Source: Tomocerus qinae (Eukaryota > Arthropoda > Collembola > Entomobryomorpha > Tomoceridae). Taken from it: a stretch of 64,000 bases of DNA. The stretch spans positions 12,400,001-12,464,000 of the forward strand of contig CM034546.1 of assembly GCA_020055645.1 (NCBI GenBank), given 5' to 3'. A program made the position numbers and the translations under genes. Under the pieces are notes generated by a model, which had not been told where the DNA came from, did not search any database, and saw only the letters and a program-made list of their open reading frames with translations. Positions 592-58,143 of this stretch are shown piece by piece. The first letter of the stretch is position 1. Every line of letters starts with the position of its first letter.

Positions 592-1586
592 GAGTAGTGG
601 CGGCTCTATGATTTGCGAGACCCTGGGCAAATGGTCTCGCGAGGCCCTATAGTAATAATTCACAAAAATGCAATTTTTAAATGTTCGGGAATCAGAAAGC
701 TAACCGTTTATTGTGTTTTGCTAAAATTGCAGAAATCGCCGTTGATTTGGTTGAATATTCAAACAATTGTTTTTTCATGTATTTCACTTATGGGTATTCA
801 AAATCATTATTAGCCAGCTAAAAATGGCACCCGGAAGAGTATGATTTATAAATATTAGACCGTAGTTAAGTTTCACTTCCTTTTCACTTCCTCCTGATTT
901 TGCAACTAATTTTGCAATTGAGGAGGGACTGAAAAGGAAGTGAAACTTTATCTGCGGTCTTATACATTAAGATTCAAAGATTTTTAAAATACTTAAACCC
1001 TGTTTTGCTGTGGGGTCCTTAAATATATTATATTATAATTGTTTTGCTGGAGTTCAATAGTCAAGCATTTTTTTTACTATTATTATAATAATTAAAACTA
1101 TGGAACTTTGTCGAGCGAAGCGAGAAATTTTTTCGCTTTAACTGAATTTGGTCATAAAAACAATATCATCGTGAAGAATTTTTATGAATTTTTGAATGTT
1201 AATGAAATAATTCCTTCTAAGGACAAGTAATACTCTTCCAAAATAAGAGTTTGAACCTCTGTTATAGAGCATTTAAGCGCTATTGAGACATTTTGCAAAA
1301 TGCAACTTTGTTCAATGAAATCAGATTAAAAATTTCAGAGATATACTTTTAATGTTTCAAATTATAAACTTTAGAGAAATAGTATACTTTTCTTCCTTGA
1401 ATTATGTGCAGCAATAAAGCTGTAAAAACTTTAGTCTGTAAATATAGTTTATCAAAACGTATACCTTAAACCAAAATCAGTGTTTCTGAAATACAAACAA
1501 CAGAAATTTTTTTCTTTGTCAAACCTCTGCGCGCGAGGCCCTGGGCAACTGCCCAGTCGCCCATTGGGAAAGTTGCCTCTAGGTGT
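592..1586. mobile_element. About 1-kb insertion in RTK copy D intron
   Basis: Copies A, B and C are collinear with D on both sides but lack this block. Both edges have GC-rich motifs (gcgaggcccta near 640, gcgcgaggccctgggcaac near 1533) in similar orientation. No open transposase and no clean inverted ends seen; unclassified. Confidence 0.5.
852..963. mobile_element. Short foldback (MITE-like) nested in the 1-kb insertion
   Basis: 112-bp palindrome-like unit: left arm TTAGACCGTAGTTAAGTTTC and CACTTCCTTTTC, right arm its near complement ending GCGGTCTTATA. Arms are about 40 bp. Confidence 0.6.
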
Positions 1587-4463: not shown

Positions 4464-5045
4464 CAGTGTACAAAATTTACCACTTTTTAGCCGTTTTTAC
4501 CATCACAGTGGTAAAAATGCATCTAATGGTAACAATGGTAAATTATAAATATTTTGCACATATACACAAACGACACATTAAAATAAGTTTTCATGCTCTA
4601 TTTTCTCTACAATATTTCTAATTAAAGATTTATATTTGAATATTCACTGAAAGTAGTGAAAAAAGTCACATAAACGACATTTATTCGCTTGGTACAAGCC
4701 AATTTTAAATTAATTAGAAAAACTGTTCATATAATTGAAATTAATTATTCGATAAGCAAATAAGGACGATTTTGTCCCAATTAGTTGACTTTTTCTTGGG
4801 CTAATTAACACACATTAAGTTGGGCAGTCAATTTGTGACAACAATCGTCAGCTACAAAGGTATTTCATGTATTAGCGGCCAAGTTGATTCAAATTCTGTA
4901 TGAAATTTAAATAAAACCATTTTTTACCATTTCTTACCAATTATACTATTGACCACCAATTTTTAGGTAGTGGTAAATAACATTAAATACCATTAAAAAC
5001 CACTTACCAAAAACCAAAACCATAAAAATGGTATTTTGTACACTG
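4464..5045. mobile_element. hAT-like MITE in RTK copy D intron
   Basis: Starts CAGTGTACAAAATTTACCA and ends GGTATTTTGTACACTG; CAGTG ends are typical of hAT. The flanking 8-mers (atagagta, gcagagca) match at 5 of 8 positions with only transitions differing, compatible with a decayed 8-bp target duplication. The same 5' end recurs at 63945. Confidence 0.6.
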
Positions 5046-6554
5046 GCAGAGCACTCTTCATAGAAATCTCATTGGAACAGCATAATAATATTCTTCCCTG
5101 TTACGTGGGTCGAGTTGAGAATAGTGTACCACATGCAGGATATACACACTTTTCCAAAGGAAGCGTATATAATCCCTGGGTTTCGAGTGACAAACCATGA
5201 ATGATTGAAGAATTGCACAAAGATAAAGTCGCGGTTATATTCAGCATTTTTACATTCATTATTCCTATAACACTAAGTTTTCTACTGAAAAGTAATTTCT
5301 AATTTAAACAATAGAAAGAGGAAAATAAATCATGCACTCGCAGTATTCATTATCACTGCGAATTTCGCCATTTTGTGAGTTGATGGTCAGCCGTTGGTAT
5401 ACGACATGAGTACAGAGATTTCCGTCGAAGGAAATTCTGTTACTGATATCGTGTAAATTAAAGGAAGCAATTCCCTTTCGTTGACTGGCTTCTAAAGAAA
5501 TCTTGCACATCACGATTGAACTGTGATTTCGATAACCTGCAATAAATTCAAGGGCTTTTTAATAACAGACAATTCTTCGAAATACTTATTTCACATGAAA
5601 TCAGGCACATACAAACGAATTTGTTGATCGGGAAAGCCAACAAATGAATTTACGGTAGTACGATATATATATAATTATTGGTTACGTGTTGTATTTAGTT
5701 AAACTATATAATAAAACTGATGGGTTCGTATGTGTACACAAGAAATCCATACTTCTGGCTTGCATGCTGACACATTGTGGTCACAACAGTAAGAAATAGA
5801 CAAGTGCCAGACCGCAAAAATTCATAGTGAATCGATATGGCAAATAATAACTTATTTCCGTAAAACTGGAAGCGGTGACCTGCAATTTGCTAAAAAATTC
5901 ATCATCAACACCAAAACTACGTTTTGCTTTGCCCAGTTATATTTGCTATTTCTAAACATTCTCAATCAAATACAATTTACTGCCTTGTAGAAGTATTTTA
6001 TGTGTACATATTCACACGCTTTAACGATGATCATCTAACCATTATATATATGCTGTTTAAATAAAACCACAGTGTACAATACTGTTAAGTTTCCTTTGGA
6101 AAAACACCAAAACATTGTAAACATACAATAACGATGAAAAAGAATTTAATACGTAATAAATGTTATTTTAATTATTATTTCTGTATTATAAGGAACTTTA
6201 ATGCGACTTATGCAGAAATTGACTAAAGTCACTAGTAGGTCAGGTTTTAGGAGATTTTTGGTTTTCCATCAGCAATTGATCATAGATTTCCTATTATTAA
6301 GATCTAACAATATTATTTCTTACCAAAATGTTATCGTTAACACTCAAATTAACCTAATGTGTATACCGATGTCTTCTGTTTACTTTGATATTGAAAATAT
6401 GTCATAACGAAAACCAATAGAATTAAGAAATATATATTGTCGCATATTTTCAATATGATAATTGATAATGTGAAATTAATTTGAAGTGATTAATCTTATA
6501 CCGACCTATTCTTTCTCATACCCTGCCCTGCTACTCGACCTTGACTGCATTCAG

Positions 6555-8212
6555 ACGTCGGAATTTTATTTAAGTAAAATTTTTACAGCCTTCTCATAGA
6601 GTTCTGAGACTTCGTATCTACACGAATCATGCACTGAGGATTTCAAAAATATAAAAGTGTTAGTAAACTTTTTTACACTTTTGTGTTCTAAAAAAATTTA
6701 AAGTTTTAGTAAATTTTTTTATATAAAAAAAAGTTTACATAAAATTTTCGACATAAAAAAATCTTAAGAAAATATTTTGGCAATTCCCAGAATATTGTAT
6801 AGGTTTTTAAAATTTTTTGCCAAAATTCTCAAAATGAAACTTACAATAAAATAAATGCATTTGCATAAATTATCTTTTCAATAAGCCTACAGTGGCCAAG
6901 ACTATCCAAGGTTAAGCGGGGCTTTCAAACATTACATTTTAGTGTCGCTGTAGTTGGAGTTGAATTGCAAGAAAAATTGCAAAATGCAGAAAGTAAAACT
7001 GACAATTTTCGTCTTTATTTCTTGTTAATTGAACTTTTTCTATTATACCAATTAATGTTATAATATTTTAGAATGCACAAGACATTTTTGAGTCCACGGC
7101 GACAAAAAAAATGTTATATGAAAAATATTGAAATGCCAATGGTTTCCCCTTATTATTTATCCACATGATTTTTCAATGGGTGTAATTTTGCCCGTTTTGT
7201 TGACTTTATTTAATTTCAATTTTAAAAATTTAATTTAAGATTTAAGATAATAAGCACGATATTTTAAGGTATAAATATTCGATTTTAAATTGGTCTGGAA
7301 TTTAAAAAGTTAAGATTCGATATTAAGTTTGGGTTGAATTTTAATATTACAATTTATATGATTTTAAGATGGCAAGTTTGGATTAAATTTTAATATTGGA
7401 ATATATATGCTATAAGATGGTAAGTTTGGATTAAATTTTTATATTATTGAAATGCGTATGATTTTAAGATGGTAAGTTTGGAATTTAAAATTGAAGATTA
7501 AATGTACAATTCTTATTTATCACTTGATTATTTAGGTAGAAATTCTGGCTTCTTTTTTCAATATGTTATATTACAGATAATGTTTTTACCGAAATCAAAA
7601 AAAAATTGTTTAGAGCAAATTCTTGCCATTTTTGGTAAATTTTTATAAAAAAATTTTTGCCATTTTTGGTAAAGGGGATGGCACCAGTCTTATGGAGTTC
7701 ATGGACCGACAGATCTGAATAGGATTAATATATGTTGTAGCACTATTTTTTCTGACCAAAAGTCATTATTGTCAAAATTCAATATGGGCTACCGTTTTCG
7801 AGATATCTGTGGTCAAAAACTGCCTTTTTAACGTTAGGGGAGCAATCCGGCAGCCTAAACCCGCAGATTTATTACCTGCCAACCATAGTTATTATAACAA
7901 TAATCTGCGGGTTTCGGCTGCCGGATTGCTCCCCTAACGTTAAAAAGGCAGTTTTTGACCACAGATATCTCGAAAACGGAAGCCCATATTGAATTTTGAC
8001 AATAATGACTTTTGGTCAGAAAAAATAGTGCTACAACATATATTAATCCTATTCAGATCTGTCGGTCCATGAACTCCATAAGACTGGTGCCATCCCCTTT
8101 TTATAAAAAATTTTTTGCCATTTTTGGTAAAATTTTATGAAAAATTTTTGCCATTTTTTGGTAAATTTTCGTGTAAATTTTTTGCGATTTTAAATAAATA
8201 AAATTCCGACGT
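6555..8212. mobile_element. 1.66-kb element with ACGTCGGAATTTTATTTA ends, RTK copy D intron 1
   Basis: Inverted ends ACGTCGGAATTTTATTTA at 6555 and its near complement (AAATAAAATTCCGACGT) ending at 8212. Interior is AT-rich, with repeated TTTTTGCCATTTTTGGTAAA motifs and a large central palindrome; no coding sequence seen. Copy C lacks this element at the equivalent place. Similar right-end sequence occurs at about 15003..15036. Confidence 0.6.
7671..8100. repeat. Large palindrome with arms of about 200 bp
   Basis: Left arm begins AAAGGGGATGGCACCAGTC and runs to about 7873; the right arm is its near-perfect complement ending GCCATCCCCTTT at 8100. The centre is a short segment near 7885. It looks like a foldback element nested in the surrounding insertion. 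Confidence 0.85.
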
Positions 8213-10006
8213 ATATATATATCTTGTGACAACAGCTTATACCCCACATTCACTATTTTTACATTTACTTATACTCCACTAGACAATAATCCTAATCTCC
8301 GTTTCTTCACTTGACTCCCAGAGTCACCGTCCCTATTTCTCTTTTTAATGAAAATAAATAGTGTGAACTGTTTTCACCTATACAATAAATTCGTTTCTCT
8401 ATTTAGCGAAAAATTGATTGATCTATTTTGTTCATTCTATCTACGTCTGCTTTATACAACATAAATATACATTGTCATCATTATCATACACTTATTACAA
8501 ACAACATGTAACCAACTAAGAATAATGCAGTAATTAGCTCACTAAAATTTTTGTTTGATTTTGCTCTGTATTTTATGAAATTTTTGCGTGGTTAAAATAA
8601 CTTAGCGGCTAATACATTGAATTACCTGTATATGAATGTCGAAAAAATTATATGGAAGTAAAAAGTCTTGAGGGATATTTGGAGTAATGTTTACTTCATG
8701 TATAATAAGTTTAATAAGTATTAACCGTACTTTAAATACATCCATAATATTTTTTCCCTTCCATTCAGTTTTATTTGAGATTTTTGAACAGACATTTCAA
8801 TGTAAAAGAGTATATACAAGTTACCATAAACTTACTTAAGAACTGTAACTTGAATATTTCACATTGACTTACAATTTTCAATTTATTGTTTCTTACAAAG
8901 ATACTTGGAATTTTAATAGTCGACTTTAAAATGCTAGCAAGGAATCTTACTTGGGCGACATACAAGATCAATGCTATTGGCATAGGCATTTTATATTGAC
9001 CAATATAAATATTTCTAATAGATAAACATACTAATAGTACAGGAATTTGTATTAATAAAATAATTTTGCCTTACTGATTGGTAACTGAGAGTGTCGAGAC
9101 TCAAATGCGTCTTTCGGTAAGTCATATTGCTTAATGCCATCTTCCGCAAGCCCGTATATGAGACAGCTACAACTTAATAGTGAAAAGCTGAATGTAAACT
9201 TCATTTGTTTTACAATTTTATATAAAAATTATAAATTCTCCGAATACTAGAAAGTTGTTTGCCTCTTTGATCGATACTGAATGCAAAAGAAGTAAAGTAT
9301 TAAAAAAAAGACAACGATTGGAATAGGAATGCTGATTAGTTATTGACTATATAGCCAACGCAAAATATTTAAAAATAAAGTTTCCTTATCTAACAATTAC
9401 GCGAGTGCACTCAGAAAACACAGAGGCAAAATCGCTAATGGAAATGATAAATTTTGCTTTTTGAGGGAAACCCAAAAATTCACTTCCATTTATACTGGGA
9501 AATGTTACATTTGCATCAATGGAAAGTGGGTTTACCATATTTAAGTAGCAATATTTCACTTAAAAACGGAAAAATAATTTTACTCTTAATCGTCTAACTT
9601 TTACCATTCCGAGAGTGAATTTTTCCATGAAGTAAAGCTACGTTAATCAGCGCCTTCTTATGAAAACGTAACTGTTGGAAGCATGGCAATTTGCACTGAA
9701 TAAGCATTTCCAAATTATTTCATCTTTTTTTCGCTAATTCTTCATTCATTTAAAAAAACAAATATCCAATCAGGATTATTATCGGGTAAAGGAAATCAGA
9801 AGAAAGAAAAAGGTAAGTATTACTATTCTTTATGAAAACTTATTCACAATTGTAAAATACTATATTGTAATTACGTATCTTAATCAATGTCATTTGTAGA
9901 TCATTTCAGCAACTCTTCTAAAAATTCGTAAAGCATATTTTGTATAATAACAAATTTTATAAAATGGAATGAAAACAGTTGCTTCTTGTATTTCATTAGT
10001 TTCATT

Positions 10007-24767: not shown

Positions 24768-27700
24768 TTAAGTAGTTAAATATGTATATCTATCGATACT
24801 GATGGTTTTCTTTATTATTGGGCGAAATTCTTTTTCAATTTCGTCAATTTTTGGACGTTCTTCTGGTAACACACTCCAACACTTTTTCATTAAATCAAAA
24901 CTAGAAGCAAAAATCGAGTATAATAAATTATCAACCGTGTGTAAGCAATTATCAGAAGAATAGAAAAAAGATTGTCTTTTAAAAAATTGATTTTGTTAGT
25001 AAAGTAATTTATACATTTCGGGTGTAGCGTGCTTAGGACAATTCATTCTGTGTCCGTTTTCCAGTTCGTTTATAAAATCGTAAGAATAGGATAATCCCGG
25101 ATATGGAGTTTCAGCAAGAGAAAATATTTCCCACAAAGTAATCCCAAGTGACCAAACATCGGATTGGAAAGAAAACGTCATGTCACGAAGAGCCTCGATT
25201 GCCATCCAACGCCAAGGAAGAGGTTCCTGTTACAGAAACGTATTATTTTATTCATAGGCTAAACAACAATTAATATTGATATAATATATTATAAATTGTA
25301 TTTACTCACTTGACTTTTCTTGACGTAGTTATTATAACAGTATACCTTCCTGGAAAGTCCAAAATCGGTGATCTTTACAGTTTCCAAATCAAATAGCAAT
25401 ATATTACGTGTAGCCAAGTCTCCGTGAATGACCTTGAGAAATACAATAACACATTGTGGTGATTAAGTGCTAAATTTATGGCGAATTTTCAGTACCAACT
25501 GAAATTGCATAATATTGCGTATTTGATACCATGAGGGACGATACATGTAGTACAGATAGTGTCTATAATGCACGCGTAATCGAGAAGTATAATAAAGTAT
25601 TTGCTATTATTATTGAATAAATTATTTATAATTCGGTAAATGTTTTGATATTTTAAATAGGTTCAAATCATACATAGGGAGCTCCGTCGTACACTTAATA
25701 AGAGATGTAGGGTTTGGAGCGGATCGCGCCATTTTTCACAGTAGAGGAGTAAAATGGTGCTCACCACCAACAACTAGCCTGACTGCCCACCACAATATGT
25801 AAGCCATCCATTATACAATGCAATAAATTCGAAAATGTTCGAGAAGGCTAACTACTTTTCTGTGCCCATGGTAGATCACTGTATGGCATTATATAATGGA
25901 CAGCTCACATGCTGTGGGGGGCAGTCCGGGTATTTGGTGGTGAGCACCTTGGTACTCATCTACTGATAAAAATGGCGCGATCCGCTCCAAACCCTACATC
26001 TCTTATTAAGTGTACGACGGAGCTCCCTATGTATGGTTCAAATCTCACTATTTGCAATGTATAGCTAAAATATTTTTAGATTCTTTATACCTTCCTTAGG
26101 CGCAAATGTTGTACAGCATTAATCATTTGATATGACCAATTTGCCAAATGGTAAGTTGTTAGACAGTTGGAATAATCCCTATCCAAAGTATTTCATTGTT
26201 AAACTTTTTACAATAAATACAAAAGTGATGAAATGGTTCAACAGTTTTGTAATTACATATTTTTAGCTCCATTATTATTGAAGGAATAGATGTCAGATTT
26301 GACAAAGTCCTTGCGCCGTTTTCTTAAAAATCCTTCCAAGGATCCTAGTGCACAGTATTCAACAAAAATATACGCAACACCTGAAACATTCCATTTTATA
26401 ATATTAAGCATGTTTTCTGAGTAACCTTAATATTTAAAGTGAATAATTTTAAAACCTAATTAGACTAATTACTTATAAAAAATATTCATGTTAGTCATTT
26501 ATGTTTGATGTAATTATTCCAAGCAGTTCATCTTCTCTGTCTGCAATTACTGTTTCTTGTGTCTGTCTGTCTACCAAATCAGTCTGGGAACCTTGTGCAC
26601 GATAACTTTCGAACAGTTTGTACTAGAGAGTTAAAATTTTAACGGCACAATCTACAGGTAAATAGAAAGGCGGAGTTCGTTAATGGTTTAAATCGGTTGC
26701 ATCCCCTGATTTGGGGAGGGGTTTAAAATGCTATTTTGCTACATTACCAGATTGCTACATACTAGAAACGGTTCTATTAATTTTGTTCCTAATTAGTTCA
26801 CTCTTTCTTTGATCACGTATGTTTTACCTTGAGATAAACTTTTTGTTCGTGCACCCAATACACTAACAATATTTGGATGATTTCCAATGTGAATCAAAAC
26901 TTTCAATTCCTGTAACAAGGATTTTAAATACTGCTTATCACATCCAGGCTTCGTTGTCTTGACAGCCACCAAGTTGTCGTGGATGCGCCCTTTATAAACG
27001 ATACCAAACTCTCCACAACCCAAAATCTTTTCTTTGTCTGTTAAATCAGATTTATTTAAGTTAATTTTTGCTTCCATATTAAATAATAACTTATTTAGAT
27101 GTCACTTTTAGTCCAACATTTTTTTACAAAATGAAATTTAGGGTCTTCAATAAGTATCCCTATAATAAAATGTTAATACCAATTTGATAAGCTTCTTCAT
27201 TGACTTCAAAAGTGTCCTTTTCATATGGCAGCTCATCTGGATTGGTACACATGTCAGATATGTCATCATTTTCATGGATCTGTCGTTGCAATCCATTGTT
27301 GAATAAAGCGATTTCCATACTTGTTAGGCCACTTTTCTGAACAAATATACTTTTTTAGACTTATGCTGCTGTATGTAGGACACTGACTTCTGGTTGTAGT
27401 TTATATTTATAGGTAGTTCAAATTTTGGAATTAATTATTTCTTATTTGTCCTTACCATTTTTTGCATTGAAAACCACTTTACGAATCCTATTACAATTAT
27501 TGTAACTACAAATACAGTAATAAATGTTATCCAAACCCATTGGAATTGTGTATTTCGTGAATTTTCTGTACTATCTATATCCCAGCAATTTTTGCAACTA
27601 AGATAAGATTCCTCTGCTATGGCTTCATTACTTTTTCCCGCTCTACAAATATATTTTCCTGCATTTTGAGCACCCACGTTCTTTATTTCTAGTGTAGATA

Positions 27701-30700
27701 TGGTTGTTCTATAAGGTAGACACTGATCAGTTAAAGTAGAGTGATGTATACGGATATTTACTCTTCCAGAATTAATTGCTTCTTCTTCTCCCTTTTCATT
27801 AACCTAATAAATTTTAAATGACTTCTATTAGGATCTTTAATCATTTAGGGGCGTTTTTTGAATTTTATATGTTGTATTTAGTAAGCTACTATTGAATATA
27901 AGTAAAAAGTATACACAACAGGAATGGTGTAAGGGAAAGGAGGAGGGAAATAGTTTTCAGAAAATATTACTAAGAGAAATCGGCTGAACGTTTTTGGGCG
28001 TGGTTTTCAGTTTTAAAATCTACCAAATTTTTTTAGACGGGCACGAAATGAAGTCTTACTTTTGAAAATTATTTTTTAAATCATCGGGAAATTCTATTTG
28101 AAAATTTTGAGTAGGGAAATACATGAAAGAATACATTTCATTGACGTAGTTAGGTAGGTATAATATTTTGAATTTTTGTTCCCATTTGTAGGCAAAAATT
28201 CAAAAGAGGCTTGCACTCATTTTCTCTTCCTTCCATAGTATTTTTGTTTTATTTTTACTATTTACCAAAATCCAGAAATCGAAATGACAATTTTTTGGTA
28301 ACGAAGCTAAAACAACTTTACTATACTGTACGTATGTAATAGTTACCACCCACGATACAAGAACTCAGTGGTGTGCATCTATTGTGGTTTTATTCGGGCT
28401 TCCTGTAGTAAGTTACCCGTTGGGATGGAAACAAAAGTCACCATATGTCCTTAAAAACGTGTTATGCATATTATATAATATTATTTTTGATGACTTTTAA
28501 GAACTCACTTTGAACCAGGAAAATTTTTTCCTGAAAGCTCCATCCACAGTGCAATTTATTTGTACCGATGATTTAGCAGTGACAGACTGATTGTAAGGAT
28601 TAATCATTACATTATCAAATTTCCAGGTCTTATCAGAAGGCATTCTCATGTTTACGTTCTTCCGATAAGTTTCGAATTGAGGACAAAGTAGAGACCCCTT
28701 CATATTTTCACTCTTTGCAAGGCCAATGTTGATTGATTTTAGTAGAGGGTATTTAGTTTCAGTACAGATACCTTTAACATCATCTCCTTCAGCAGATTCA
28801 GTAAGCACACCAAGTAGTCCTAGTTTGTTAGCATGCATTGCCTTTTCGTATACACTATCGGGATTTTCAAAAGTTAACCATCTTTTTCCATCTTCCATAA
28901 ATGGAACTTTGGCCTTTTCATCCCAAAAAAATTCTCCATGGCCCTTTTGTAACTAATACAGAATGGCAGATCTAAAAACACAATCGAAATATTATAATGG
29001 ATAGCTTAAGCTGAACTGGTAACCATAAAGTTGGCCAACCAGGTAAATGTCAATTTTTATGCAAGTTTAATTAATTCAGTTGGCTGCTGCTGTCCTAACA
29101 AAGGAGGGTAGAAATGGTAGAACTTACCCGACGTTGTACTATAATTTAGCGTACATAAGAATAAGAATTTTACGAAATATACTTATGGCTTGTAACTAAA
29201 ATTATAATATACAACTGACCGTATGTAAAATGATTGCAGTGACCTATCAAATTTAATTGCTATGTTAATTGAAGTTTACAGCATTACTAAACCATGTCAA
29301 ATGCATGTAAAAAAGTAGAAGAGATAACAGGGAATAGCGACTTTAAATGACGTTTTAGTGCATTTTTCCAATGACCTTTGACCTTGTGGCCCGTATGATT
29401 TGATCTGACCTAACGAATAACTATCGAACGAGAGATATGTGAGATATCATGTCGTTAATTAAAGTTAGGCCAATTTTTATATTTATAAACACGCCCACAG
29501 GCAGGGTGTGAGTCCGATGTTACCTACAGTTAAACTTGGCATCAGTTTTGTCCCCAGATGACGTTCAGAAAGTTCGCACGGATTATCTCAAACCGTTGTT
29601 GAGTTATCGTGATAACGTTAAGACAGAAGGACAGACAGACAGATCAGTGATTCATATGAAGTATCTCCCATCTCCGCTACTTAATAAGTTTTATAATCAA
29701 TGGTGAGTAAAATTCTAGAAAACAACCAATCTTCTTTACCTCATAATAAGGCCAATAGTAATATCCAAGAATTGGACTGTGTATATACACGTTTTCAGTC
29801 GGCGTTGATGCATTTTCCGGTTTCAATGCAAACGGTTGCCCCTCGAATTTGATTCCGAGAACTAAATTGCTAGGACGAACTTTCAATTTGAATATCAGAT
29901 GGTCTAAAAATTTATCAACGTGAGCTAATTCATTCAATTCCGAAGCAAATAAAGCAGACCAATGAGCAGGTCTTCCGTTGTACAAGTCGGTGGCATAATC
30001 CCAGGCTCTTATAACAATTATGTCGAAAATTCTACTGATTTGGGTAACATGGTTAATGATTTGGTCAAATCTTTGAGTTGTACATCCCCATACTTCAGTC
30101 ACCAATATCAAATTTTGTTTTCGAAATTCACTTTTTAGCATCTATTGACAGTCAGAAATAAAAACATTACATGGCGAAATTACATTAAATTACAAAGCTT
30201 GACACTTCTATGATGTCAATTGAATAAACCACAGAAAGCACTAATATCAGTAAATTTGCAATGTATTGATTGACATAAGAAAATTGCAATGCTTTGTGAT
30301 TACTCGCTTTACAATCAATGACTATACGTTAGCAAAGTTGGACCAAACTTTCCAACAGTACCTAAAACATTTTTCATAATTTTTATTCCGATATTGTGAT
30401 AAAGTCAACAAAAAAATCACCTTTGCAAAGTCAACAAACTTTTCGTCTGGGTAGGTTATGAAGATATTGCCACTAAGATATGCTCCAGAAAGATTGAGTT
30501 CACTGCAATAGAAATCTAAACTTAGAAACAAAAACATTTTTTCCCATTTTGCCCAATTTTTAAGGTTTACTTACGTTATTTTTTCGTGCAACATTGAAAT
30601 TAATGTTAATTGCTTTTCCATAGTTGAAAGTAGGTTTAGTAATGCGTTGTAAGAATATTTTTCATCTGATGATAATCCAATTTCAACCAACGTTTTGAGA

Positions 30701-31020
30701 TGAGGATACTTCGCTTGAATTACACTATTAAACAATCTCATGAACCCTTAAAAAATAACAAATGTTAAAACACAGTGCGCTTTAATTAGGGTTTTCTCAA
30801 GTGTTAATACCTAATCTATGATGAATGATGAAACTCAAACGAATCTCTTATATTATAAACATAGAAGAGATAAAGCAATAAATTTACTAATCTATCTATA
30901 TATGAATGTCTGGCAGGAAGAGTATACAGTTCCTTGGTTTCGAGTGATAAACCATGATTGAGGAATTGCACAAAGACAAGGTATACAGCCAAAGCCGGAT
31001 GTTATATTATGTATTTTTCT
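24768..31020 (-). pseudogene. RTK copy A, headless (exons 3-14), GH18-Ig-TM-kinase
   Basis: Paralogue of the complete receptor at 33124..42663. Exons, 5' to 3': 30575..30746, 30421..30502, 29740..30141, 28509..28971, 27456..27803, 27180..27336, 26828..27070, 26257..26380, 26091..26178, 25310..25432, 25015..25226, 24768..24900. The signal-peptide exon and first GH18 exon are absent: similarity to the complete copy stops at about 31020, where a fragment of another copy begins. Exon 28509..28971 is 1 nt longer than its paralogues because an A run near 28924..28930 has 7 rather than 6 bases, shifting the frame in the last GH18 segment. The kinase half is nearly identical to copy C (for example SLAETPYPG against SLAENPYPG). 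Without exons 1 and 2 and with this shift it probably makes no receptor, though the kinase exons themselves look whole. The A run could be an assembly error. Confidence 0.82.
25670..26034. mobile_element. MITE in kinase intron of RTK copy A, 10-bp target duplication
   Basis: 365-bp element with about 60-bp terminal inverted repeats (starts ATACATAGGGAGCTCCG, ends in its complement). It is flanked by the 10-bp direct repeat GGTTCAAATC at 25660..25669 and 26035..26044. Long inverted repeats with 9-10-bp target duplications suggest a Mutator-like parent. It sits in the intron between the exons encoding the hinge/catalytic-loop segments. Confidence 0.75.
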
Positions 31021-32290
31021 TAGATTGCTACATACTAGAAACGGTTCTATTAATTTTGTTCCTAATTAGTTCACTCTTTCTTTGATCACGTATGTTTTAC
31101 CTTGAGATAAACTTTTTGTTCGTGCACCCAATACACTAACAATATTTGGATGATTTCCAATGTGAATCAAAACTTTCAATTCCTGTAACAAGGATTTTAA
31201 ATACTGCTTATCACATCCAGGCTTCGTTGTCTTGACAGCCACCAAGTTGTCGTGGATGCGCCCTTTATAAACGATACCAAACTCTCCACAACCCAAAATC
31301 TTTTCTTTGTCTGTTAAATCAGATTTATTTAAGTTAATTTTTGCTTCCATATTAAATAATAACTTATTTAGATGTCACTTTTAGTCCAACATTTTTTTAC
31401 AAAATGAAATTTAGGGTCTTCAATAAGTATCCCTATAATAAAATGTTAATACCAATTTGATAAGCTTCTTCATTGACTTCAAAAGTGTCCTTTTCATATG
31501 GCAGCTCATCTGGATTGGTACACATGTCAGATATGTCATCATTTTCATGGATCTGTCGTTGCAATCCATTGTTGAATAAAGCGATTTCCATACTTGTTAG
31601 GCCACTTTTCTGAACAAATATACTTTTTTAGACTTATGCTGCTGTATGTAGGACACTGACTTCTGGTTGTAGTTTATATTTATAGGTAGTTCAAATTTTG
31701 GAATTAATTATTTCTTATTTGTCCTTACCATTTTTTGCATTGAAAACCACTTTACGAATCCTATTACAATTATTGTAACTACAAATACAGTAATAACTGT
31801 TATCCAAACCCATTGGAATTGTGTATTTCGTGAATTTTCTGTACTATCTATATCCCAGCAATTATTGCAACTAAGATAAGATTCCTCTGCTATGGCTTCA
31901 TTACTTTTTCCCGCTCTACAAATATATTTTCCTGCATTTTGAGCACCCATGTTCTTTATTTCTAGTGTAGATATGGTTGTTCTATAAGGTAGACACTGAT
32001 CAGTTAAAGTAGAGTGATGTATACGGATATTTACTCTTCCAGAATTAATTGCTTCTTCTTCTCCCTTTTCATTAACCTAATAAATTTTAAATGACTTCTA
32101 TTAGGATCTTTAATCATTTAGGGGCGTTTTTTGAATTTTATATGTTGTATTTAGTAAGCTACTATTGAATATAAGTAAAAAGTATACACAACAGGAATGG
32201 TGTAAGGGAAAGGAGGAGGGAAATAGTTTTCAGAAAATAATACTAAGAGAAATCGGCTGAACGTTTTTGGGCGTGGTTTTCAGTTTTAAA
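31021..32290 (-). pseudogene. RTK fragment B: Ig/TM, juxtamembrane and kinase N-lobe exons only
   Basis: A 1.27-kb piece equivalent to 26750..28020 of copy A, lying in tandem between copies A and C. It holds three exons, all open: 31729..32076 (Ig end, CxxC, transmembrane helix), 31453..31609 (juxtamembrane), 31101..31343 (P-loop, VAVK lysine, alpha-C helix). It differs from copies A and C at a few bases (for example NNCWD instead of KNCWD, WITVITVF instead of WITFITVF), so it is not an exact assembly echo. Both ends join unrelated parts of the repeat unit with only 2-4 bp of shared sequence. No promoter, signal peptide or rest of the kinase is present. Confidence 0.8.
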
Positions 32291-32449
32291 ATCCAGGTAA
32301 CGACTCATATTTCTTATTTTTGTATACACTGGGATATAACGATTTAGCAAGTCGCATTAAGTGTGCTAATAGCACTCAAAGCGTTGGTATTCTTGGAAGA
32401 TAATGTCATTTACATAAGCTGACCATCTGCATGGTATTTGGCACATCCA

Positions 32450-33100: not shown

Positions 33101-33106
33101 TTTATT
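33101..33106 (-). terminator. Polyadenylation signal of RTK copy C
   Basis: An AATAAA on the minus strand, 18 nt beyond the stop codon of RTK copy C. The equivalent site in copy A is 24745..24750. The 3' UTR would be very short. Confidence 0.5.
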
Positions 33107-33123
33107 TCTTCGAACGAAATCTT

Positions 33124-36100
33124 TTAAGTAGTTAAATATGTATATCTATCGATACTGATGGTTTTCTTTATTATTGGGCGAAATTCTTTTTCAATTTCGT
33201 CAATTTTTGGACGTTCTTCTGGTAACACACTCCAACACTTTTTCATTAAATCAAAACTAGAAGCAAAAATCGAGTATAATAAATTATCAACCGTGTGTAA
33301 GCAATTATCAGAAGAATAGAAAAAAGATTGTCTTTTAAAAAATTGATTTTGTTAGTAAAGTAATTTATACATTTCGGGTGTAGCGTGCTTAGGACAATTC
33401 ATTCTGTGTCCGTTTTCCAGTTCGTTTATAAAATCGTAAGAATAGGATAATCCCGGATATGGATTTTCAGCAAGAGAAAATATTTCCCACAAAGTAATCC
33501 CAAGTGACCAAACATCGGATTGGAAAGAAAACGTCATGTCACGAAGAGCCTCGATTGCCATCCAACGCCAAGGAAGAGGTTCCTGTTACAGAAACGTATT
33601 ATTTTATTCATAGGCTAAACAACAATTAATATTGATATAATATATTATAAATTGTATTTACTCACTTGACTTTTCTTGACGTAGTTATTATAACAGTATA
33701 CCTTCCTGGAAAGTCCAAAATCGGTGATCTTTACAGTTTCCAAATCAAATAGCAATATATTACGTGTAGCCAAGTCTCCGTGAATGACCTTGAGAAATAC
33801 AATAACACATTGTGGTGATTAAGTGCTAAATTTATGGCGAATTTTCAGTACCAACTGAAATTGCATAATATTGCGTATTTGATACCATGAGGGACGATAC
33901 ATGTAGTACAGATAGTGTCTATAATGCACGCGTAATCGAGAAGTATAATAAAGTATTTGCTATTATTATTGAATAAATTATTTATAATTCGGTAAATGTT
34001 TTGATATTTTAAATAGGTTCAAATCATACATAGGGAGCTCCGTCGTACACTTAATAAGAGATGTAGGGTTTGGAGCGGATCGCGCCATTTTTCACAGTAG
34101 AGGAGTAAAATGGTGCTCACCACCAACAACTAGCCTGACTGCCCACCACAATATGTAAGCCATCCATTATACAATGCAATAAATTCGAAAATGTTCGAGA
34201 AGGCTAACTACTTTTCTGTGCCCATGGTAGATCACTGTATGGCATTATATAATGGACAGCTCACATGCTGTGGGGGCAGTCCGGGTATTTGGTGGTGAGC
34301 ACCTTGGTACTCATCTACTGATAAAAATGGCGCGATCCGCTCCAAACCCTACATCTCTTATTAAGTGTACGACGGAGCTCCCTATGTATGGTTCAAATCT
34401 CACTATTTGCAATGTATAGCTAAAATATTTTTAGATTCTTTATACCTTCCTTAGGCGCAAATGTTGTACAGCATTAATCATTTGATATGACCAATTTGCC
34501 AAATGGTAAGTTGTTAGACAGTTGGAATAATCCCTATCCAAAGTATTTCATTGTTAAACTTTTTACAATAAATACAAAAGTGATGAAATGGTTCAACAGT
34601 TTTGTAATTACATATTTTTAGCTCCATTATTATTGAAGGAATAGATGTCAGATTTGACAAAGTCCTTGCGCCGTTTTCTTAAAAATCCTTCCAAGGATCC
34701 TAGTGCACAGTATTCAACAAAAATATACGCAACACCTGAAACATTCCATTTTATAATATTAAGCATGTTTTCTGAGTAACCTTAATATTTAAAGTGAATA
34801 ATTTTAAAACCTAATTAGACTAATTACTTATAAAAAATATTCATGTTAGTCATTTATGTTTGATGTAATTATTCCAAGCAGTTCATCTTCTCTGTCTGCA
34901 ATTACTGTTTCTTGTGTCTGTCTGTCTACCAAATCAGTCTGGGAACCTTGTGCACGATAACTTTCGAACAGTTTGTACTAGAGAGTTAAAATTTTAACGG
35001 CACAATCTACAGGTAAATAGAAAGGCGGAGTTCGTTAATGGTTTAAATCGGTTGCATCCCCTGATTTGGGGAGGGGTTTAAAATGCTATTTTGCTACATT
35101 ACCAGATTGCTACATACTAGAAACGGTTCTATTAATTTTGTTCCTAATTAGTTCACTCTTTCTTTGATCACGTATGTTTTACCTTGAGATAAACTTTTTG
35201 TTCGTGCACCCAATACACTAACAATATTTGGATGATTTCCAATGTGAATCAAAACTTTCAATTCCTGTAACAAGGATTTTAAATACTGCTTATCACATCC
35301 AGGCTTCGTTGTCTTGACAGCCACCAAGTTGTCGTGGATGCGCCCTTTATAAACGATACCAAACTCTCCACAACCCAAAATCTTTTCTTTGTCTGTTAAA
35401 TCAGATTTATTTAAGTTAATTTTTGCTTCCATATTAAATAATAACTTATTTAGATGTCACTTTTAGTCCAACATTTTTTTACAAAATGAAATTTAGGGTC
35501 TTCAATAAGTATCCCTATAATAAAATGTTAATACCAATTTGATAAGCTTCTTCATTGACTTCAAAAGTGTCCTTTTCATATGGCAGCTCATCTGGATTGG
35601 TACACATGTCAGATATGTCATCATTTTCATGGATCTGTCGTTGCAATCCATTGTTGAATAAAGCGATTTCCATACTTGTTAGGCCACTTTTCTGAACAAA
35701 TATACTTTTTTAGACTTATGCTGCTGTATGTAGGACACTGACTTCTGGTTGTAGTTTATATTTATAGGTAGTTCAAATTTTGGAATTAATTATTTCTTAT
35801 TTGTCCTTACCATTTTTTGCATTGAAAACCACTTTACGAATCCTATTACAATTATTGTAACTACAAATACAGTAATAAATGTTATCCAAACCCATTGGAA
35901 TTGTGTATTTCGTGAATTTTCTGTACTATCTATATCCCAGCAATTTTTGCAACTAAGATAAGATTCCTCTGCTATGGCTTCATTACTTTTTCCCGCTCTA
36001 CAAATATATTTTCCTGCATTTTGAGCACCCACGTTCTTTATTTCTAGTGTAGATATGGTTGTTCTATAAGGTAGACACTGATCAGTTAAAGTAGAGTGAT

Positions 36101-39100
36101 GTATACGGATATTTACTCTTCCAGAATTAATTGCTTCTTCTTCTCCCTTTTCATTAACCTAATAAATTTTAAATGACTTCTATTAGGATCTTTAATCATT
36201 TAGGGGCGTTTTTTGAATTTTATATGTTGTATTTAGTAAGCTACTATTGAATATAAGTAAAAAGTATACACAACAGGAATGGTGTAAGGGAAAGGAGGAG
36301 GGAAATAGTTTTCAGAAAATAATACTAAGAGAAATCGGCTGAACGTTTTTGGGCGTGGTTTTCAGTTTTAAAATCTACCAAATTTTTTTAGACGGGCACG
36401 AAATGAAGTCTTACTTTTGAAAATTATTTTTTAAATCATCGGGAAATTCTATTTGAAAATTTTGAGTAGGGAAATACATGAAAGAATACATTTCATTGAC
36501 GTAGTTAGGTAGGTATAATATTTTGAATTTTTGTTCCCATTTGTAGGCAAAAATTCAAAAGAGGCTTGCACTCATTTTCTCTTCCTTCCATAGTATTTTT
36601 GTTTTATTTTTACTATTTACCAAAATCCAGAAATCGAAATGACAATTTTTTGGTAACGAAGCTAAAACAACTTTACTATACTGTACGTATGTAATAGTTA
36701 CCACCCACGATACAAGAACTCAGTGGTGTGCATCTATTGTGGTTTTATTCGGGCTTCCTGTAGTAAGTTACCCGTTGGGATGGAAACAAAAGTCACCATA
36801 TGTCCTTAAAAACGTGTTATGCATATTATATAATATTATTTTTGATGACTTTTAAGAACTCACTTTGAACCAGGAAAATTTTTTCCTGAAAGCTCCATCC
36901 ACAGTGCAATTTATTTGTACCGATGATTTAGCAGTGACAGACTGATTGTAAGGATTAATCATTACATTATCAAATTTCCAGGTCTTATCAGAAGGCATTC
37001 TCATGTTTACGTTCTTCCGATAAGTTTCGAATTGAGGACAAAGTAGAGACCCCTTCATATTTTCACTCTTTGCAAGGCCAATGTTGATTGATTTTAGTAG
37101 AGGGTATTTAGTTTCAGTACAGATACCTTTAACATCATCTCCTTCAGCAGATTCAGTAAGCACACCAAGTAGTCCTAGTTTGTTAGCATGCATTGCCTTT
37201 TCGTATACACTATCGGGATTTTCAAAAGTTAACCATCTTTTTCCATCTTCCATAAATGGAACTTTGGCCTTTTCATCCCAAAAAATTCTCCATGGCCCTT
37301 TTGTAACTAATACAGAATGGCAGATCTAAAAACACAATCGAAATATTATAATGGATAGCTTAAGCTGAACTGGTAACCATAAAGTTGGCCAACCAGGTAA
37401 ATGTCAATTTTTATATGCAAGTTTAGTTAATTCAGTTGGCTGCTGCTGTCCTAACAAAGGAGGGTAGAAATGGTAGAAGTCACCCGACGTTGTACTATAA
37501 TTTAGCGTACATCAGAATAAGAATTTTACGAAATATACTTTTGGCTTGCAAACTAAAATTATAATATACAACCGGCCGTATGTAAAATGATTGCAGTGAC
37601 CTATCAAATTTAATTGCTATGTTAATTGAAGTTTACAGCATTAATAAACCATGTCAAATGCATGTAAAAAAGTAGAAGAGATAACCAGGAATAGCGACTT
37701 TAAATGACGTTTTAGTGCATTTTTCCAATGACCTTTGACCTTGTGACCCGTATGACTTGATCTGACCTAACGAATAATCTTTCGAACGAAATATGTGAGA
37801 TATCATGTCGTTAATTAAAGTTTACATGTTACCTACAGTTAAACTTGGCATCAGTTTTTGTCCCTAGATGACGTTCAGAAAGTTCGCACGGATTATCTCA
37901 AACCGTTGTTGAGTTATCGTGATAACATTAAGACAGACAGACAGATCAGTGATTCATATAAGGTATCTCCCATCTCCGCTACTTAATAAGTTTTATAATC
38001 AATGGTGAGTAAAATTCTAGAAAACAACCAATCTTCTTTACCTCATAATAAGTCCAATAGTAATATCCAAGAATTGGGCTGTGTATATATACGTTTTCAG
38101 TCGGCATTGATGCATTTTCCGGTTTCAATACAAACGGTTGCCCCTCGAATTTGATTCCGAGAACTAAATTGCTAGGACGAACTTTCAATTTGAATATCAG
38201 ATGATCTAAAAATTTATCAACGTGAGCTAATTCATTCAATTCCGAAGCAAATAAAGCAGACCAATGAGCTGGTCTTCCGTTGTACAAGTCGGTGGCATAA
38301 TCCCAGGCTCTTATTACAATTATGTCGAAAATTCTACTGATTTGGGTAACATGGTTAATGATTTGGTCAAATCTTTGAGTTGTACATCCCCATACTTCAG
38401 TCACCAGTATCAAATTGTGTTTTCGAAATTCACTTTTTAGCATCTATTGACAGTCAGAAATAAAAACATTACATGGCGAAATAACATTAAATTACAAAGC
38501 TTGACACTTCTATGATGTCAATTGAATAAACCACAGAAAGCACTAATATCAGTAAATTTGCAATGTATTGATTGACATAAGAAAATTGCAATGCTTTGTG
38601 ATTACTCGCTTTACAATCAATGACTATACGTTAGCAAAGTTGGACCAAACTTTCCAACAGTACCTAAAACATTTTTCATAATTTTTATTCCGATATTTTG
38701 ATAAAGTCAACAAAAAAATCACCTTTGCAAAATCCACAAACTTTTCATCTGGGTAGGTGATGAAGATATTTCCACTAAGATATGCTCCAGAAAGATTGAG
38801 TTCACTGCAATAGAAATCTAAACTAAGAAACAAAAACATTTTTTTCCATTTTGCCCAATTTTTAAGGTTTACTCACGTTATTTTTTCGTGCAACATTGAA
38901 ATTAATGTTAATTGCTTTTCCATAGTTGAAAGGAGGTTTAGTAATGCTTTGTAGGAATATTTTTCATCTGATGATAATCCAATTTCAACCAACGTTTTGA
39001 GATGAGGATACTTCGCTTGAATTACACTATTAAACAATCTCATGAACCCTTAAAAAATAACATAATATTAAAACACAGTGCGCTTTAATTAGGGTTTTCT

Positions 39101-42100
39101 CAAGTGTTAATACCTAATCTATGATGAATGATGAAACTCAAACGAATCTTTTATATTATAAACATAGAAGGGATAAAGCAATAAATTTACTAATCTATCT
39201 ATATATGAATGTCTGGAAGGAAGAGTATACAGTTCCTTGGTTTCGAGTGATAAACCATGATTGAGGAATTGCACAAAGACAAGGTACACCCAAAGCCGGG
39301 TGTTATATTACGTATTTTTCTTATTTCCATTATTCTTATCTCATTAAGTTACTACAGAAAAGTACATTTAAATATATGTACGAAAAAGAGGACAATAAAT
39401 CATGCACTCACAGTATTCATTATCACTGCGAATTTTGCCACTTTGTGAGTTGATGGTCAGCCGTTGGTATACGACATGAGTACATAGGTTTCCGTCGAAA
39501 TAATTACTGCTACTGATATCGTTCAAATTAAAGAAAGCATTTCCCTTACGTTGGCTGGCTTCTAAAGAAATCTTACACATGACGATTGAACTGTGGTTTC
39601 GATAACCTGTAATAAATGCAAAAGAATTTTTAATATTTGCAACAATATTCTTAGAAAATGAAACCAGGCACATACGCACAAATTTGCTGATCAAATCAAC
39701 CAACAAATGAATTTGCGTTAGTAAGATGAGTGTGTATAACTTTTGGTTACTTATTATCTGTACTTAAACTTGGATACTTTTCATGCTGACATACTGTACT
39801 GACAAAAAAGACAACTGTCGGACCACAAAAATACACATTAAGTCCATAATATGACAAAAAATAATTTATATTCTTAAAATGGAAGCTGTGACATAATTTG
39901 GTAAACGATTCATTATTCATTATCAACACCAAAACTATATTTTCTTATGCCCAATTAATCGCAATATGCATCGTCAGGCTGGTAGCTTAACCACGGCTTA
40001 GCCTATATGCATATTGCATATTTTCGAGACCAGCCTACTGATGAATAATGCCTATTTTCGGTGGCAGCTATTAGCTAGCTACATATTGCGTATTTGATAC
40101 CTTAATTAAGGGACGTTTTGATTTTCCATCAGTAATTGATCATAGATACCTTAATACTAAGATAGATTCTGAAAAATTATTTCTTACCAAAATGTTATTC
40201 GTAAAAACTAATATGTACCTAATGAATGCCGATGTCTTCTGTCTATATGTGAGAATAACAACCAATGGAATCAAAAAATGAGTAGTCTTGCATTCATAAT
40301 ATTACATTAATTTGAAGACAACTTCTTAGTCCTAATCTTATGTCGGTTTTTGCCATATTTGCATACCCTGCCCGGCCACTTTTTGCATCATATATCTGAC
40401 CCCTTTGGCTCATACTCTACAATTACTATTTTTACCTTTACTTATACTCCTATGGAGAATCTTATTCTGGACTTTTTTAAGACTTGAATTCTACTACAGT
40501 CATCGTCCTCATTTTTCCACTGGATAAAAATAATTATTGTCCACTGTATTTACAGTGTTCGATGACCAGCCGGTTAGCCGGCTATAATGGTCAGGTTAAA
40601 ATGGCTAGCCGGCTGGCAAAATACCCTTGTTAGCCGGCGGATAAAATGGCTAAATTGGTTAAAATGGTCAAAAATAAAATATACGTAAAATGGGGCAAAG
40701 TAAAACCCTATTCTGCCTAGATTAGCCTATCCTTGATCTACACCAAAGTTTAAACTAATTTTGTTTAAGAAGGGCCTACATACTTGCAATCTACAAATCA
40801 ATCTTTGGTCACAATTCTTCCAACTAACCGTTGTGAAGACATAAGACTACGCTAAACCTTGTCAGTCTTGTTTCTTGGCGAATTAGTACGGTCAGGAAGT
40901 GTTGCTGAAGCAGGTGCACTAAAACGTGACGCGGTTGCAGCAGAGCGTCGTCGTGCCGGCGTTCTTCGTTTTGTTTTTTGCTTTGATGACATTTTCTGCG
41001 AAAACTGTAAAATCCGATAGAGATGTAACAGTATTTGATATCGTAACTAAAATGTAGTTAAATTTTAAAAATGCAGTTAAATTTTAAAAATGTAGTTAAA
41101 TTTTAAAAATGTAGTTAAATTTTAAAAATGTAGTTAAATTTTAAAAATGTAGTTAAATTTTAAAAATGTATACTTTGAAAAACAAATAAACTTATTGATC
41201 AGGGGTGGCATTACGTATCTTTTCAAATAAGCCGCTTAGATATAATCCAAAGTTAACCCGAGTTTAACCGTAAATATAACCTCATTCTGTAGCAAAAAGT
41301 AATATGGCTCAACTTTGGTTCAAACTAAACCATGGTTTAACTTTTTTAACCACAATAGTTTGATCCCCATGGCTACTCCTACATGTGGATGGGTCAAATT
41401 ACTAATGTGGTTTGCAGATTTAAAAATATAGTTTATATGAGTCTTCAAGTTTACTTCCAAAATAAAAGTGTCCATGACTACCTACGCTGAGATTTGGACT
41501 TGGACTATAAAGTATGAGAAATACAATGCAAAATAACATTATTATCAGACTTAATCCACCTATGAGGCTGGATTAACTTTTTTGGCTCAATTCGTGGTTT
41601 GAACTTGACGTTTAAAGTTACAGAATATGCGTATTCGCTAATTTAGGTCAAAGTGACGATGACTTAACTTTTTCTCATCTTTTGTTGTCTCAGCCATTTT
41701 ATTTCCGGTTATAGAATAGGTTTAAGTCTGGATTAGAAGATAACCCGATTATTTCTGGCTTAACGAACTTACGTAATGCCACCCCAGAGAATGAATTTGT
41801 TTGAGAAGAGAGTACACAGAGCAAAATGGCGCCAGTCTATTATTATTCATTTGTTGGACGCTGCGCTGTGGCTTGAAGTTTGAACTCCTGTGCTGCAAAA
41901 TCAAGGAGGTTTCAAGGATATGGACATTTTTAGCCATTTTAACCATTTTAGCCATTTTAACCATTTTAGCCATTTTAACCATTTTAGCCGGCTGGTTGGT
42001 CAAAAAGCTTTTTAGCCGGATAAAATCGAACACTGTGTATTTATACATGTACAACAAAGTCGTTTATTTGGCACAAAAATTCATCTATTTTGGTTCTTAT

Positions 42101-42663
42101 CTACTTTCGCTTTATTCAATCTAAATTTATATTGTCATCTTTATCATGTAGCAATGAGTATATTCCTTTCAGATTACATTACATCTCAATCATCTCATTC
42201 ATCAACAATAAAACTCCTACGTTTAATGCGAACTTTGTGTAACAGACTAAGAGTTGCAGTGGTTAATCCACTAAAAATTTTTTTAGTTTTAATCTGAATT
42301 TTGATATTATAAATTGTAATTTATAATATTTGTCTTGATATCACTATGACATTACAATGTTCGGTTTTCGAAAATTCTAGCAGTCCATTTTAATAAGCTA
42401 GCACAAAACTTTTACATGGGGGCGACGTGCGAGATGGCTACTTGCAAGATATTTTACATTGATTAATATAAATATTTCTACTAGTAAACAAACACTTAAG
42501 TATAGTGAAAGTAATAAATTAATATTGCCTTACTGATCGGTAACTGAGAGTGTCGGGACTCAAATGCATCTTTTAGTGAGTCATATTGTATAATGCCATC
42601 TTCAGCAAGCCCGAATAGAAGACAGGAAAAACTTATTAATGAAAGGCTGAATGTAAACTTCAT
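33124..42663 (-). CDS. Receptor tyrosine kinase with chitinase-like (GH18) ectodomain, copy C, complete
   Basis: Fourteen exons read on the minus strand: 42534..42663, 39412..39606, 38877..39048, 38723..38804, 38042..38443, 36864..37325, 35811..36158, 35535..35691, 35183..35425, 34612..34735, 34446..34533, 33666..33788, 33371..33582, 33124..33256. All introns are GT-AG, all phases agree, and the total is 2871 nt (956 residues plus stop). Signal peptide 1-20. GH18-like domain about 45-445: LCTHVVY at 84-90, [19 protein letters not shown], and [10 protein letters not shown] in the C-terminal part. Ig-like domain about 460-540 with QINC, WFK and KYIC. Transmembrane helix about 570-591, preceded by a CxxC. 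Kinase about 657-950: GCGEFG, Lys687 in VAVK, HGD 804-806, DFG 824-826, [19 protein letters not shown]. It should sit in the plasma membrane and signal by tyrosine phosphorylation; a glycan ligand is inferred. Intron 1 carries a 1.5-kb hAT-like insert. An AATAAA lies 18 nt past the stop. Confidence 0.88.
34026..34389. mobile_element. Same MITE insertion in kinase intron of RTK copy C
   Basis: Orthologous to the insertion at 25670..26034: same intron, same 10-bp duplication GGTTCAAATC (34016..34025 and 34390..34399), one G shorter in an internal G run. The insertion therefore predates the duplication that made copies A and C. Confidence 0.75.
41045..41165. repeat. Tandem repeat of about 19 bp, 6 copies
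   Basis: Unit ATGTAGTTAAATTTTAAAA repeated almost exactly inside the hAT-like element. Confidence 0.85.
41212..41785. mobile_element. MITE nested in the hAT-like element
   Basis: Inverted ends GGGGTGGCATTACGTA and TACGTAATGCCACCCC. The interior is rich in TTTAACC-type motifs and non-coding. Flanking duplication is unclear. Confidence 0.55.
41925..41990. repeat. Minisatellite of CATTTTAGC/CATTTTAAC units
   Basis: Alternating 9-bp units near the right arm of the hAT-like element. Translation gives a meaningless ILAILT repeat. Confidence 0.8.
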
Positions 42664-58121: not shown

Positions 58122-58143
58122 TAGTAAAAGCGGCCTTTAACGA

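Follow-up and report, generated by a model that had tools for sequence, protein, structure and literature searches.

A predicted receptor tyrosine kinase with a degenerate chitinase-type ectodomain in the collembolan Tomocerus qinae

Does an animal genome encode a receptor tyrosine kinase (RTK) whose outer part is a chitinase-fold domain, and what would such a domain do at the head of a receptor? The question is raised by a minus-strand gene at 42663-33124, hereafter copy C, of a 64,000-bp window of the Tomocerus qinae genome (GenBank assembly GCA_020055645.1, contig CM034546.1, positions 12,400,001 to 12,464,000), for which a first-pass annotation had proposed a surface receptor that reads chitin or another glycan. 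Our analysis points, with reasonable if guarded confidence, to a gene-predicted RTK of the PDGFR/VEGFR class (Pvr in insects) in which a GH18 barrel, akin to insect chitinases but catalytically dead, would have taken the place of the outer immunoglobulin (Ig) domains, with a single membrane-proximal Ig domain left. The features read directly from the DNA are the order of the domains, a single exon that contains the GH18-Ig join, a catalytic motif lost from two diverged copies, four aligned cysteines, purifying selection on the ectodomain, and the catalytic residues and two activation-loop tyrosines of the kinase.

Copy C comprises 14 exons that join in phase, and all of its introns follow the GT-AG rule (13/13). 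As first modelled, the gene has 956 codons followed by a stop codon, and residue numbers throughout this paper refer to that 956-residue model. The exons are as follows.

Exon 1, 42534..42663, minus strand: start codon and, judged by hydropathy, a hydrophobic signal-like N-terminus
Exon 2, 39412..39606, minus strand: first strands of GH18, with Cys54 and Cys85
Exon 3, 38877..39048, minus strand: GH18; GGW aligned to GLS
Exon 4, 38723..38804, minus strand: GH18; DxxDxDxE aligned to TELNLSGA, residues 166-173
Exon 5, 38042..38443, minus strand: middle of GH18; the raw frame matches Pfam GH18 (1.7e-6)
Exon 6, 36864..37325, minus strand: closing part of GH18 running on into the opening part of the Ig domain without a break in frame
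Exon 7, 35811..36158, minus strand: remainder of the Ig domain, membrane helix, start of the cytoplasmic part
Exon 8, 35535..35691, minus strand: juxtamembrane segment; 12 residues aligned to VEGFR2 ERLPYDASKWEF
Exon 9, 35183..35425, minus strand: kinase N-lobe (GCGEFG, VAVK); acceptor at 35425 or, better, at 35392
Exon 10, 34612..34735, minus strand: kinase hinge and a short kinase insert
Exon 11, 34446..34533, minus strand: kinase segment ahead of the catalytic loop
Exon 12, 33666..33788, minus strand: HGDLATRN catalytic loop, DFG, activation-loop tyrosines Y832 and Y837
Exon 13, 33371..33582, minus strand: WMAIEAL (for APE) and SDVWS
Exon 14, 33124..33256, minus strand: end of the kinase C-lobe and stop codon

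Pfam analysis of the spliced model revealed Glyco_hydro_18 (GH18) at residues 62-383 (5.4e-30, profile positions 12-310 of 317), Ig_3 at 450-536 (6.4e-8) and PK_Tyr_Ser-Thr at 663-937 (3.7e-73), all three exceeding the curated cut-offs. Hydropathy alone indicates a mildly hydrophobic, signal-like stretch at residues 1-25 and a putative membrane helix at about 571-589. The domain order given by the first-pass annotation, from signal-like N-terminus to tyrosine kinase, thus agrees with both Pfam and hydropathy, with the three domains found above cut-off on one protein. Its exons and their phase hold as well; its length of 956 residues needed correction. The exon-9 acceptor at 35425 that yields this length lacks a pyrimidine tract, and the alternative at 35392 keeps the frame and gives 945 residues. 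We consider the 945-residue product the better model, because the acceptor at 35392 has the better tract and, with it, the matches to PDGFRA and KIT start in the juxtamembrane segment instead of inside the kinase. An in-frame ATG at 35430-35432, just upstream of the glycine loop of the kinase, could start a kinase-only product. Intron 11 contains a fold-back element (34022-34393, also found at 25666-26038) that aligns with its reverse complement at roughly 80% identity across 380 columns. Scans of the window with Rfam and for tRNA genes returned no match.

The fusion of GH18 to Ig can be read without any splicing. Taken alone, the raw exon-5 frame matches the middle of GH18 (1.7e-6, 28.4 bits) and the raw exon-6 frame its end (positions 266-310 of 317, 4e-6, 27.1 bits); since each exon matches by itself, the GH18 homology is independent of how the exons are joined. 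Both scores fall slightly under the Pfam cut-off of 29.6 bits, which the spliced whole exceeds, because single exons hold only pieces of domains. The exon-6 frame then enters the Ig domain (Ig_2 positions 3-36 of 79, 0.018, under cut-off), and the raw exon-7 frame carries the end of the Ig domain (I-set positions 52-78 of 90, 0.0029, under cut-off) followed by the membrane helix in the same frame.

Three further, incomplete copies of the gene lie in the window.

Copy A, 24771..30744, minus strand: exons 3-14, without exons 1-2; 95.1-100% identical to copy C by exon
Copy B, 31022..32293, minus strand: fragment with exons 7-9; 99.8% identical to 36375-35104 of copy C; wedged between the A and C units
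Copy D, 1..9204, minus strand: diverged; exons 1-7 and the first 18 bases of exon 8; cut off by the window edge

The first-pass annotation had taken the recurrence of the GH18, Ig, TM and kinase exons in its copy A and of the ectodomain order in its copy D, which we take to be the copies A and D listed here, as proof that the fusion is not an assembly join. This argument stands for copy D, which is diverged and repeats the order of GH18, Ig and membrane helix. It is weak for copy A, which is 98.1% identical to copy C overall, and we set that copy aside as independent support; copy D, for its part, is cut off by the window edge ahead of the kinase exons. With the join inside exon 6 and the same order in copy D, an assembly join is ruled out as the source of the GH18-Ig-membrane helix fusion. 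The kinase part, whose exons are seen only in copies C, A and B, may yet owe its place to an assembly join.

The gene unit is repeated in tandem at 23932-31022 and 32288-39323. Identity is 99.5% along 5.5 kb (23932-29466 against 32288-37822) and 97.0% along the adjoining 1.5 kb (29517-31022 against 37826-39323), and the 3′ flank is part of the repeat. The A/C repeat is possibly a recent duplication or an assembly duplicate. Exon 6 of copy A has one extra T in a run of T. The frame of copy D stays open through exons 1-6, where indels are multiples of three and a single GC donor follows exon 2. Where the window cuts this copy off, its final 28 bases correspond to the close of intron 7 together with 18 bases from the start of exon 8.

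The ectodomain encoded by exons 1-6 is under purifying selection. Over 478 aligned codons, copies C and D differ by a synonymous divergence (dS) of 0.234 and a nonsynonymous divergence (dN) of 0.084, hence a dN/dS of 0.36 (bootstrap 95% 0.25-0.52; Nei-Gojobori method, a pairwise value that averages over both branches). By stretch, the ratio is 0.32 for residues 1-44, 0.39 for 45-193, 0.36 for 194-327 and 0.23 for 328-425, the end of GH18. Introns 2-6 of the two copies agree at 68% of their aligned positions (57 to 91% for the individual introns) and contain large gaps. The joined GH18-Ig coding sequence has thus been held as a protein since the C/D split.

What, then, is the GH18 domain? Among PDB sequences, the nearest solved structures are OfChtIV chains 6jm8 (2.3e-27) and 6jm7 (2.5e-27), matched over query residues 4-370 of 388, and the GH18 domain of copy D separately matches OfChtIV at 1e-27. 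OfChtIV is a group IV insect chitinase. Cys54, Cys85, Cys329 and Cys396 align with cysteines of the OfChtIV chain. Homology to the fold is therefore clear from Pfam and PDB sequences alike (5.4e-30 and 2.3e-27), whereas the catalytic DxxDxDxE with its glutamate is gone: DGLDVDWE is aligned to TELNLSGA (166-173), with Asp replaced by Thr, Asn and Ser in turn and Glu by Ala. All four acidic positions are changed in both alignments shown for copy C and in three of the five shown for copy D. Since TELNLSGA is invariant between C and D, the altered active site looks like a settled state rather than scatter. Further losses affect the aromatic positions at GGW and on strand 8, which carry sugar binding in GH18. 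GGW is aligned to GLS in copy C, its tryptophan facing Ser in C and Leu in D, and LWS of strand 8 is aligned to TES in both copies, its tryptophan facing Glu in each. Strand-6 MTYD is aligned to RAWD in copy C. An active chitinase is ruled out by the alignment of the catalytic motif, and the domain is best described as a predicted pseudoenzyme, non-enzymatic in either copy.

Other dead GH18 proteins are linked to signalling. The IDGFs (IDGF2) and CHI3L1/YKL-40 are secreted, non-catalytic GH18 proteins that act as growth-factor-like signals, and the active site of gene C is more eroded than theirs. CHI3L1 matches most of the GH18 domain and IDGF2 only about 50 C-terminal residues; in contrast to these secreted proteins, the GH18 of gene C would form a receptor ectodomain. 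OfChtIV likewise differs from gene C, which lacks the acidic residues of DxxDxDxE and the two tryptophans and is fused to an Ig domain, a membrane helix and a kinase.

A parallel design is found in plants. Plant sequences that combine a kinase domain with a predicted extracellular GH18 domain number 91 in one review, which mentions tobacco CHRK1 by name (PMC5485988). According to a second review, CHRK1 has no chitinase activity for want of the glutamate (PMC10573068); in the passages concerned the two disagree, the former calling the plant GH18 ectodomain predicted enzymatic and the latter CHRK1 inactive. Gene C shares with CHRK1 and the plant GH18 receptor-like kinases a GH18-type ectodomain, a membrane location and a cytoplasmic kinase, and with CHRK1, as described in PMC10573068, the missing glutamate. 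The likeness to plant receptor kinases drawn by the first-pass annotation is thereby borne out as architecture, and CHRK1 makes the parallel more specific. It holds as a predicted architecture (glutamate-less GH18 ectodomain, membrane helix, kinase) and not as descent: CHRK1 is a plant receptor-like kinase of class V chitinase ancestry, with no Ig domain mentioned in the passages that treat it, and the nearest listed PDB sequences to the gene C kinase are animal RTKs rather than plant receptor-like kinases, so that gene C would have arisen independently.

The plant receptors bear on the proposal that the protein is a glycan or chitin pattern receptor, in which the dead barrel would still hold an oligosaccharide and signal through the kinase. 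In its favor are the homology to insect chitinase structures and the existence of plant GH18 receptor kinases without the catalytic glutamate, a defence role for CHRK1 being proposed in one review. However, the erosion in gene C goes beyond the glutamate to the other acidic residues of the motif and to the GGW and strand-8 tryptophans, and because these aromatics are also lost, binding of chitin becomes less likely too. This part of the first-pass annotation finds no support: by its predicted residues, chitin sensing by the GH18 head is unsupported, and we regard a glycan receptor in general as unlikely. The roles that the annotation suggested for such a receptor, in immunity, moulting or sensing at the gut lining, are guesses.

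We return to the predicted Pvr-class receptor with its kinase, which the first-pass annotation had assigned to no class. In the order of the 60 best listed PDB sequences, VEGFR2, PDGFRA, VEGFR1 and KIT come first, followed by RET, FLT3 and FGFR4, a ranking made against solved structures in a comparison set that holds no insect Pvr, and not a tree. The top-listed chain, 9p9u, carries two EGFR kinase copies whose scores are summed, and EGFR was therefore discarded as the nearest kinase. With the acceptor at 35392, the top score against VEGFR2 increases from 215.6 to 218.2 bits, and the match includes the juxtamembrane LPY segment, which some VEGFR2 matches had already covered with the acceptor at 35425; in the VEGFR2 alignment, 12 residues of exon 8 are set against VEGFR2 ERLPYDASKWEF. 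A juxtamembrane segment of the LPYxxxxWE type is a motif of the PDGFR/VEGFR class. The VAVK lysine, DFG, the catalytic Asp and Asn and the aspartate of SDVWS are all present, and Y832 and Y837 align with two activation-loop tyrosines of VEGFR2. The catalytic loop reads HGDLATRN opposite HRDLAARN of VEGFR2, and a non-RD receptor tyrosine kinase of this kind is unusual. Because HGD replaces HRD and AIE replaces APE, activity of the copy C kinase is predicted to be probable rather than certain. An NCBIfam scan gave six kinase-type families of prokaryotes, all under their cut-offs.

Gene C thus resembles the PDGFR/VEGFR/KIT class in its kinase domain, its juxtamembrane LPY segment, its pair of activation-loop tyrosines and its single membrane helix with an adjoining Ig domain. 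Receptors of this class have five to seven Ig domains, whereas gene C has GH18 and one Ig, besides HGD instead of HRD. Both cysteines of the Ig domain are present. Its position, not its sequence, suggests a likeness to the membrane-proximal Ig of the VEGFR class; assignment to one specific VEGFR2 domain is unsupported, since several Ig domains share the match and titin ranks first.

VEGFR-class receptors bind VEGF-type ligands with their outer Ig domains. Since these are absent, the usual VEGF-type ligand should not be answered directly by the copy C product. We propose instead that the dead GH18 barrel would bind a ligand without cleaving it, a protein, either secreted or at the surface, being a more probable candidate than chitin, and that binding would pair receptors through the Ig domain and the membrane helix. 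The paired kinases could then phosphorylate each other's activation loops and signal as Pvr-class receptors do. Pairing with an ordinary Pvr is also conceivable. More tentatively, and with distinctly less confidence than we place in the receptor class, an animal lineage may have independently reached the plant CHRK1 design, as a tandem-multiplied family of RTKs headed by a pseudo-chitinase that would sense, at the surface, a cue of protein or glycan nature and pass it into the VEGFR/Pvr pathway.

The ectodomains of animal RTKs are, to our knowledge, drawn from a short list of domain types. Venus kinase receptors set a precedent for a borrowed ectodomain, being invertebrate RTKs with an ectodomain from another protein class (PMC2680970, PMC4026697). 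Unlike the combination in gene C, theirs is a Venus flytrap domain attached to an insulin-receptor-like kinase. In full-text literature searches, no animal GH18 receptor tyrosine kinase was found among the titles and abstract starts of the matches listed; subscription papers, preprints and protein databases were outside the scope of these searches, so that automatic annotations may exist. In the main text of the holozoan tyrosine-kinome paper (PMC8662651), neither chitin nor glyco occurs as a word start, and a Daphnia paper in which both subjects came up has them in its reference list only. The combination of GH18 with a receptor kinase is known in plant receptors and was not found in print for animals in these searches. 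Relatives were also sought in contig collections of viruses and prokaryotes: the viral contigs contained none (6 pattern matches; 88 with the C and D alignment), and of 5 pattern matches in prokaryote genome contigs a single one passed, a 24%-identical stretch in Lentisphaera (L001) that we do not use as evidence. If the predicted receptor is real, a pseudoenzyme would itself be the receptor head, unlike the secreted GH18 signals, the plant CHRK1 design would have had a second origin, and a concrete protein would be at hand for asking what dead GH18 domains bind.

Several observations weigh against a dead-GH18-headed receptor descended from Pvr. In exon 7 of copy D, a stop codon stands at the second Ig cysteine and the frame shifts further on, so that copy D could make neither the membrane nor the kinase part and is no receptor today. 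No diverged copy spans the kinase exons, which limits the evidence of selection to exons 1-6; over residues 426-481, the Ig start (56 codons of exon 6), dN/dS is 0.50, a weaker sign. In two of the five alignments shown for copy D (3wkz and 3wl1), the Glu and first Asp of the catalytic motif face a gap, while the middle two Asp face Asn and Ser. The Ig domain matches titin (1.7e-8) better than VEGFR2 (9.2e-6); both values add up the matches to several Ig domains, none of which scores well by itself. The HGD and AIE changes belong here as well, as does the fact that the ligand class is deduced from lost residues alone. Finally, descent from Pvr is a proposal drawn from the ranking among solved structures described above.

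Some of these observations are what one would expect if the products acted as decoys or modulators, with a membrane form and soluble ectodomain forms, the latter being the only product still within reach of copy D, binding the ligand or pairing with an ordinary Pvr and limiting its signalling. The open exons 1-6 of copy D, constrained relative to copy C yet followed by a stop in exon 7, and the altered HGD and AIE of the copy C kinase agree with such a role. But copy C retains the lysine, DFG, the catalytic Asp and Asn and both activation-loop tyrosines, and the broken exon 7 of copy D may reflect mere decay, and a pairwise dN/dS averages both branches; a decoy role seems to us improbable. The probabilities that we attach to these alternatives overlap and are not meant to sum to one.

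Decay could also have overtaken the whole tandem array, copy C included. Copy A is without exons 1-2, copy B is reduced to exons 7-9 and copy D has its stop and frameshift, all of which fits; copy C, however, is open across all 14 exons, and dN/dS between C and D is below one in exons 1-6, so we give a non-functional copy C only a slim chance. Very unlikely, too, is that manual splicing artificially joined two genes in the same orientation, one for a GH18-Ig protein, secreted or in the membrane, and another, downstream, for a kinase: the exon-9 acceptor at 35425 is weak, an in-frame ATG ends just upstream at 35432 and the fused model, in a further point against our interpretation, is predicted from genomic sequence rather than transcripts, but exon 7 runs past the membrane helix, exon 8 with its VEGFR-like juxtamembrane motif joins exon 9 in phase at the better acceptor and raises the VEGFR2 match to 218.2 bits, and introns 7 (119 bases) and 8 (109 or 142 bases, according to the acceptor chosen) are short.

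Elsewhere in the window, 46072-48295 and 56217-58141 are copies of each other, 89-95% identical in two blocks of which one is inverted relative to the other. The frames tested in them gave no Pfam match; by eye, we take their hydrophobic segments to recall a divergent membrane protein of the ionotropic-receptor type. A DDE_Tnp_4 transposase at 61106-62038 (plus strand) lies near a frame with a MADF DNA-binding domain at 62912-63250 (minus strand), a pair that we assume to represent a Harbinger-type transposon. Between 58060 and 59900, minisatellite-like repeats with open frames on both strands (by eye) lie in the 4-kb stretch whose G+C content, at 0.418, is the highest in the window.

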